Virus record (IMG/VR): IMGVR_UViG_3300032242_000653
Span: 1-38,499 of that record
DNA length: 38,499 bases
Reading direction: 5' to 3' (one strand)
Source of the DNA: a virus
A program made the translations under genes and the position numbers. A model generated the notes under the pieces. It saw only the letters and a list, made by a program, of their open reading frames with translations, was not told where the DNA came from and searched no databases. Positions 35,860-36,292 of the stretch are shown piece by piece; within the stretch, counting starts at the first letter, position 1; every line of letters starts with the position of its first letter.

Positions 35860-36292
35860 TATTGTTACGGAATGTTGTTATATTGTTATAAAAGTGAAAA
35901 GTAGAATGTAACAATAGAAAGCTAGTGTTTATGCGGGTTAGAAGTATATTGTTATAAAGTTATATTGTTATAGATAGTAGTATGTCCTCGTTGCTTTCTG
36001 CTTTTGTATTGTTATGCTTTTCTGCGTATATGCCTCTTTTGATTTCTGCACTCTCAATTTTTAAAAATGTAACAATACCCTCTGAAACCCGCATTATTAC
36101 ACCTTAAGTCATTGATTACATTAGGCTTTTAGAAACGTAACTTTATACCCCTGTTTTGTAACAAAGTATATAAATCAATGACTTACAAAATACCAAAACG
36201 TAACAATACAAAAAATAAACGTAACAATAGGTTTTACCTCTTACATGAGAACTATCATGTCCATCTAATATAACTCTGTATCACATTGTTAT
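35860..36292. repeat. Iteron-like cluster, TATTGTTAY
   Basis: Nine copies of TATTGTTAY: forward at 35860, 35881, 35947, 35963 and 36007; reverse at 35908, 36069, 36200 and 36221. Close variants lie at 35874 (GTTGTTA core), 36159 (reverse, TTTGTTA core) and 36284 (CATTGTTAT). Two pairs are spaced exactly 21 bases, two helical turns. The core ATTGTTA is the half-site of the 16-base palindrome. Confidence 0.8.
36105..36185. repeat. 13-base inverted repeat
   Basis: TAAGTCATTGATT at 36105-36117 and its exact complement at 36173-36185, separated by 55 bases that contain a TTTGTTA variant. Could be a paired protein site or a cruciform arm. Confidence 0.75.

Follow-up and report, generated by a model that had tools for sequence, protein, structure and literature searches.

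What does an array of short repeats, packed into 433 bp of gene-free DNA, do in the genome of an uncultured phage? The window, i.e., the whole stretch of DNA that was analysed, is a linear and probably incomplete IMG/VR virus record of 38,499 bases. A sequence-only reading of it had described nine copies of TATTGTTAY and three close variants in both orientations, two pairs of them exactly 21 bases apart, and had estimated that less than one copy of the seven-base core would be expected. All of this is borne out: TATTGTTAY occurs exactly nine times in our recount (Table 1), there is no open reading frame of at least 50 amino acids between 35720 and 36421, and the exact 21-bp separations are those of 35861/35882 and 36201/36222. 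Furthermore, the core ATTGTTA is present in 10 copies between 35860 and 36292, whereas 20,000 dinucleotide shuffles average 0.35 copies and never exceed 4. A short repeat of initiator size, present in multiple copies in non-coding DNA, is what one looks for in an iteron origin.

The array belongs to a conserved control region that is common to many uncultured phages. From IMG/VR we gathered ~130 loci through a palindrome scan and a TerL search; in ~20 diverged relatives, which are non-independent samples and in which the array limits were drawn by hand, the same kind of array occupies the same genomic place, between a leftward early operon and a small gene adjoining TerS/TerL. TerL identity to the window's partial TerL is 66–75% for the first relatives compared. 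The nearest isolate among phage records is Pelagibacter phage HTVC027P, its match being limited to part of TerL; the HTVC027P transcriptome paper does not mention promoters or origins. A search of genome contigs found no host or prophage relatives. We also noted that this cultured pelagiphage (L055, position 17393) has a cluster of its own, consisting of seven AAGCTTG sites within ~430 bp.

Two points had been missed by the sequence-only reading: the internal plan of the array, and the base that follows TGTTA (see below). Among same-orientation sites in the window and its relatives, 8 bp is the commonest spacing (33 pairs; next commonest, 9). In most phages a left inner pair faces a right inner pair across 104–124 bp, with further single sites outside. 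The window follows this plan, with an 8-bp step between sites, clusters that oppose each other over ~100 bp of spacer, and a pair of IHF-consensus sites in inverted orientation; its left cluster retains just two exact units, and it has a single right inner site. The inverted repeat around this core folds stably in several relatives; the ~110-nt spacer is mostly no more structured than shuffles.

Table 1. Features of the window that bear on the array and its surroundings
Feature	Position	Strand	Details
DUF927 primase/helicase, 948 aa	13645..16491	-	Related to SCCmec Cch; candidate initiator
Palindrome set CCTAACAATTGTTAGG	26887..37057 (span)		26887, 28987 (1 mismatch), 31132, 32258, 33286, 34140, 34584, 35429, 35741, 36360, 37042
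Ribbon-helix-helix protein, 64 aa	27563..27757	-	BrnA-antitoxin-like; second candidate palindrome binder
DksA/TraR-like zinc-finger protein, 70 aa	33754..33966	-	In relatives usually an early gene adjoining the array
Start-associated palindrome	35741..35756		Leader of first early gene (ATG at 35719)
Extended -10 TGTGATACAAT	35794..35804	-	Putative leftward early promoter at left edge of array
Iteron-like array	35860..36292	both	Nine TATTGTTAY sites: 35860(+), 35881(+), 35908(-), 35947(+), 35963(+), 36007(+), 36069(-), 36200(-), 36221(-); three variants
Array variant TGTTGTTAT	35873	+	
Array variant CTTTGTTAC	36158	-	
Array variant CATTGTTAT	36284	+	
Left outer arm	35931..35939	+	ATGCGGGTT; inverted repeat around core; longer version in L043
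Left inner cluster	35947..35971	+	Three units, 8-bp period: TATTGTTA TAAAGTTA TATTGTTAT; middle one degenerate
Spacer between inverted inner clusters	35972..36068		104 bp site to site
Right inner site	36069..36077	-	Faces left cluster
Right outer arm	36086..36094	-	AACCCGCAT; complementary to 35931-35939
IHF-consensus site	36105..36117	-	AATCAATGACTTA; fits consensus WATCAANNNNTTR
IHF-consensus site	36173..36185	+	AATCAATGACTTA; inverted relative to 36105-36117 copy
Two-copy repeat containing CATGAGAACTATCAT	36233-36270 and 36309-36346		38 bp, 79% identical
Start-associated palindrome	36360..36375		Right edge of array, beside terminator of 198-aa gene
Intrinsic terminator-like hairpin	36384..36404	-	Downstream of 198-aa gene
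198-aa protein (P0001 family)	36422..37018	-	Candidate palindrome-binding regulator

Iteron origins also recruit a bending protein, and a 13-bp inverted repeat in the window array consists of two copies of AATCAATGACTTA, which are predicted IHF sites. IHF-consensus matches number 22, in 16 of 21 arrays, where the remainder of these loci would predict 0.58, an enrichment that is partly post hoc in that the motif was spotted by eye before the consensus was recognized; nine of the 22 are placed 14 or 22–25 bp outward from the right-hand pair. In 15 of 21 loci, as against 0.9 expected, the 60-mer with the lowest stability of the whole locus falls inside the array, while the window array lies within the top 0.5% of melting-prone 60-mers and is not the minimum, bearing in mind that non-coding DNA is generally AT-rich. 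DnaA-box matches are absent from the window array, and the arrays of relatives have just two, both isolated. Cumulative GC skew, which the sequence-only reading had proposed as a check, agrees with an origin at the array yet is fully confounded with gene direction; we rejected it as evidence because the skew follows that direction.

Gene content suggests that the likeliest initiator acting on the array would be the phage's own DUF927 helicase-primase. The encoded protein matches SCCmec Cch (PDB: 5dgk; E = 5e-13) and NCBIfam SCCmet_Cch1 (E = 2e-14, well below the model's own cut-off), and 10 of 39 contigs searched encode DUF927. In SaPI origins, two sets of iterons flank an AT-rich segment. Cch has been described as a relative of Rep, the initiator helicase of SaPIbov1, and in SaPIs the origins that Rep recognizes are composed of short iterons (PMC7581432). 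The window resembles these SaPI/SCCmec replicons (SaPIbov1 Rep and Cch being DUF927 helicases) in its clustered short iterons and in encoding such a helicase within the element; it differs in the 8-bp period of its iterons, in their arrangement as two inverted clusters, and in its IHF-consensus sites. Moreover, SaPI origins adjoin rep, whereas the phage array does not lie directly downstream of the helicase gene: the two are ~20 kb apart, and for that reason we do not file this phage as a SaPI/SCC Cch-type replicon.

With moderate confidence, we interpret the array as an iteron-type replication origin that is joined to the control region of the early operon. The sequence-only reading had offered either an origin or a titration site for a regulator; the first of these gains support because the architecture is conserved in diverged relatives, an IHF consensus and a melting-prone core are present, and an initiator-type helicase is encoded, while titration persists as one form of the main rival (see below). 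Counting against an origin are the lack of a DnaA box in the window array, a search of 41 contigs (some partial) that yielded no Rep_3 initiator, the ~20 kb that separate the helicase gene from the array, and the fact that the window array is not the melting minimum.

We hypothesize that an initiator would bind the ~8-bp sites (iterons) in the two facing clusters, and that host IHF would bind beside these clusters, bending the DNA; the AT-rich inner sites would melt, and the DUF927 (Cch/SaPI-Rep-like) helicase-primase could load facing helicases, leading to bidirectional replication. Several relatives have an iteron within a promoter spacer, where its occupancy could also damp early transcription. 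If this interpretation is right, the replication origins of a large uncultured phage group, one with no close isolate in the phage records searched, could be recognized by a signature in their sequence, and the DUF927 helicase is named as the candidate initiator.

The main rival of the origin reading, one that we take seriously and yet consider unlikely, is that the array controls transcription only, as an enhancer, silencer, operator cluster or regulator-titration site for a leftward early promoter, with no origin present. Many relatives have a sigma70-like leftward promoter at the left array edge (a TTGACA-like element, 17 bp, then TACAAT or TATAAT, with TGTGG as the extended -10), and an array half-site is often located inside the promoter spacer. 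In addition, IHF and clustered sites are also present in regulated promoters. On the other hand, the inverted clusters ~110 bp apart and the melting minimum lie upstream, away from the promoter. In the window, there is no -35 hexamer at the putative early promoter, and in a general scan shuffled sequences gave more promoter-like matches than the window itself; the case for a promoter is therefore one of conservation.

The early genes carry a second motif. The palindrome CCTAACAATTGTTAGG is present in 10 exact copies and one with a single mismatch, versus 0.3 expected, mostly ~20 bp upstream of leftward early genes of the window. More generally, the palindromes mostly lie 13–28 bp before starts that have a Shine-Dalgarno-like sequence, and they are enriched in several, not all, of the phages tested. 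We believe that they are probably a separate control module in front of the early genes. The first of them sits downstream of the putative early promoter, in the likely leader, and for that reason is not the core promoter. In cluster K mycobacteriophages, many start codons are closely preceded by SAS/ESAS, short conserved motifs that in some cases contain inverted repeats and whose function was unclear when they were described (PMC3203893). The palindromes are like these in position, shortly upstream of many starts, with no homology claimed and unrelated sequence; they differ from SAS/ESAS in being a near-perfect 15–16-bp palindrome alone. We dropped a likeness of GCCTAAC...GTTAGGC to integron attC R boxes, no L boxes being evident by eye.

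The sequence-only reading had proposed the palindrome half-site as the building block of the array, such that one protein could bind monomer sites in one and dimer sites in the other. In the F plasmid, the RepE monomer starts replication on the iterons and the RepE dimer represses on the operator (PMC13028717). The equivalent here, overlapping both the origin and the transcription readings, would be one initiator with two modes, in which an array-bound monomer starts replication and a palindrome-bound dimer represses ~ten early genes, the two site types differing in a single base after TGTTA; if true, it would couple origin occupancy to early-gene shut-off. The TGTTA core is indeed common to both motifs in the window and many relatives, and F plasmid ori2 likewise combines iterons and AT-rich DNA with bending factors from the host and with inverted-repeat operators whose core is similar. 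The phage differs from ori2/RepE in lacking Rep_3 (among the same 41 contigs, some partial) and a DnaA-box cluster, in having operators at ~ten genes rather than one, and in that the operator base after TGTTA is not that of the array. This base is T or C at every array site of the window, while 21 of its 22 palindrome halves have G there (Fisher p = 2e-8), and it separates the two classes in most relatives, the exceptions being L006 and L049; operator halves thus do not have the iteron sequence in the window and in most relatives.

Furthermore, a comparison of lineages shows that the core of the array and the palindrome vary independently of each other. Arrays occur without palindromes, of the TGTTA type (L060, L081) or the TGTTC type (L079, L127, L090); elsewhere the palindrome is TGTCAG and the array TGTTA (L107), the palindrome TGTAGG and the array of TATTA type (L084), or the palindromes GACAGT and GACTTA and the array TGTTC (L067, L101). 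One counter-example, L103, has TGTTT in both palindrome and array. These observations leave the half-site proposal mostly unsupported, and we regard the one-initiator model as distinctly improbable. Because the two motifs change independently, this phage group is a natural series for testing how initiators and regulators recognize their sites. The other repeated palindromes of related phages, mostly start-associated as well (L067, L101, L084, L107 and L103: ACTGTCNGACAGT, TAAGTCNGACTTA, CCTACANNNTGTAGG, CTGACANNTGTCAG and TAAACANNTGTTTA), argue that the operator module evolves fast.

Returning to the origin reading, the palindromes would be its second module, a set of early-gene leader operators that are probably bound by a dimer. 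The neighbouring 198-aa family is the best candidate for that role: TGT-type palindromes occur in 22 of 23 distinct contigs with the family versus 1 of 24 without it (Fisher p = 4e-11, a value that overstates the evidence since near-duplicates were merged manually and the contigs are still related to some extent). Profile searches with the 198-aa protein gave no Pfam, PHROG, NCBIfam or PDB match, and the array-adjacent proteins of palindrome-less relatives have no detectable homology to the family. The ribbon-helix-helix protein likewise co-occurs with the palindromes and is also a candidate binder. The DksA/TraR-like zinc-finger protein is found in 31 loci, often beside the array, palindrome-less relatives included. 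If this assignment is right, it describes a separate genome-wide operator network, together with a family of candidate regulators for which profile searches gave no fold.

We consider it very unlikely that the array is instead a recombination or packaging site, whether attP-like or, as with lambda cosB, cos/pac-like. Lambda attP and cosB, like the phage array, do combine repeated sites with IHF sites, the repeated sites of cosB being those of the small terminase; the terminase genes, too, lie within ~1.5 kb of the array. However, a search confined to tyrosine integrases found none among 41 contigs, many of them fragments, and a separate conserved motif is present at the terminase gene. This motif, GAAACACCCCCCGTC (37318–37332), is preceded by C-rich runs and lies ~50 bp upstream of the TerS open reading frame; its core, ACACCCCCCGTC, is retained in 15 loci from lineages whose arrays differ, which makes GAAACACCCCCCGTC a better candidate packaging site than the array.

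Finally, it is hardly credible that the palindromes and the inverted repeat at the core work at the RNA level, as hairpins in early transcripts, and not at the DNA level: the palindromes lie in likely leaders before Shine-Dalgarno sequences and could form hairpins of 6 bp with loops of 3–4 nt, and in several relatives the core repeat has a stable fold, but the ~110-nt spacer mostly does not exceed shuffles in structure, and the outermost bases of the palindrome halves vary independently within contigs (135 of 178 symmetric versus 136.9 expected), which favours recognition of duplex DNA, so that the palindromes look like predicted duplex-DNA operators.

Several minor observations were made in passing. 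In L090 (3440–4170), palindromes centred on AACGCGTT recur both inside the TGTTC array region and on its flanks, and the spacer of ~186 nt is strongly structured. The two copies of the 38-bp CATGAGAACTATCAT repeat of the window sit between array and terminator, and similar GAACTATCA stretches are present in L006 and other relatives. The AAA ATPase bears a distant resemblance to N4-type phage ATPases. In a 2,804-aa protein of the window (4953–13367), the C-terminal part gives a DarB-like antirestriction match, and the protein also has a weak LPD39 match.
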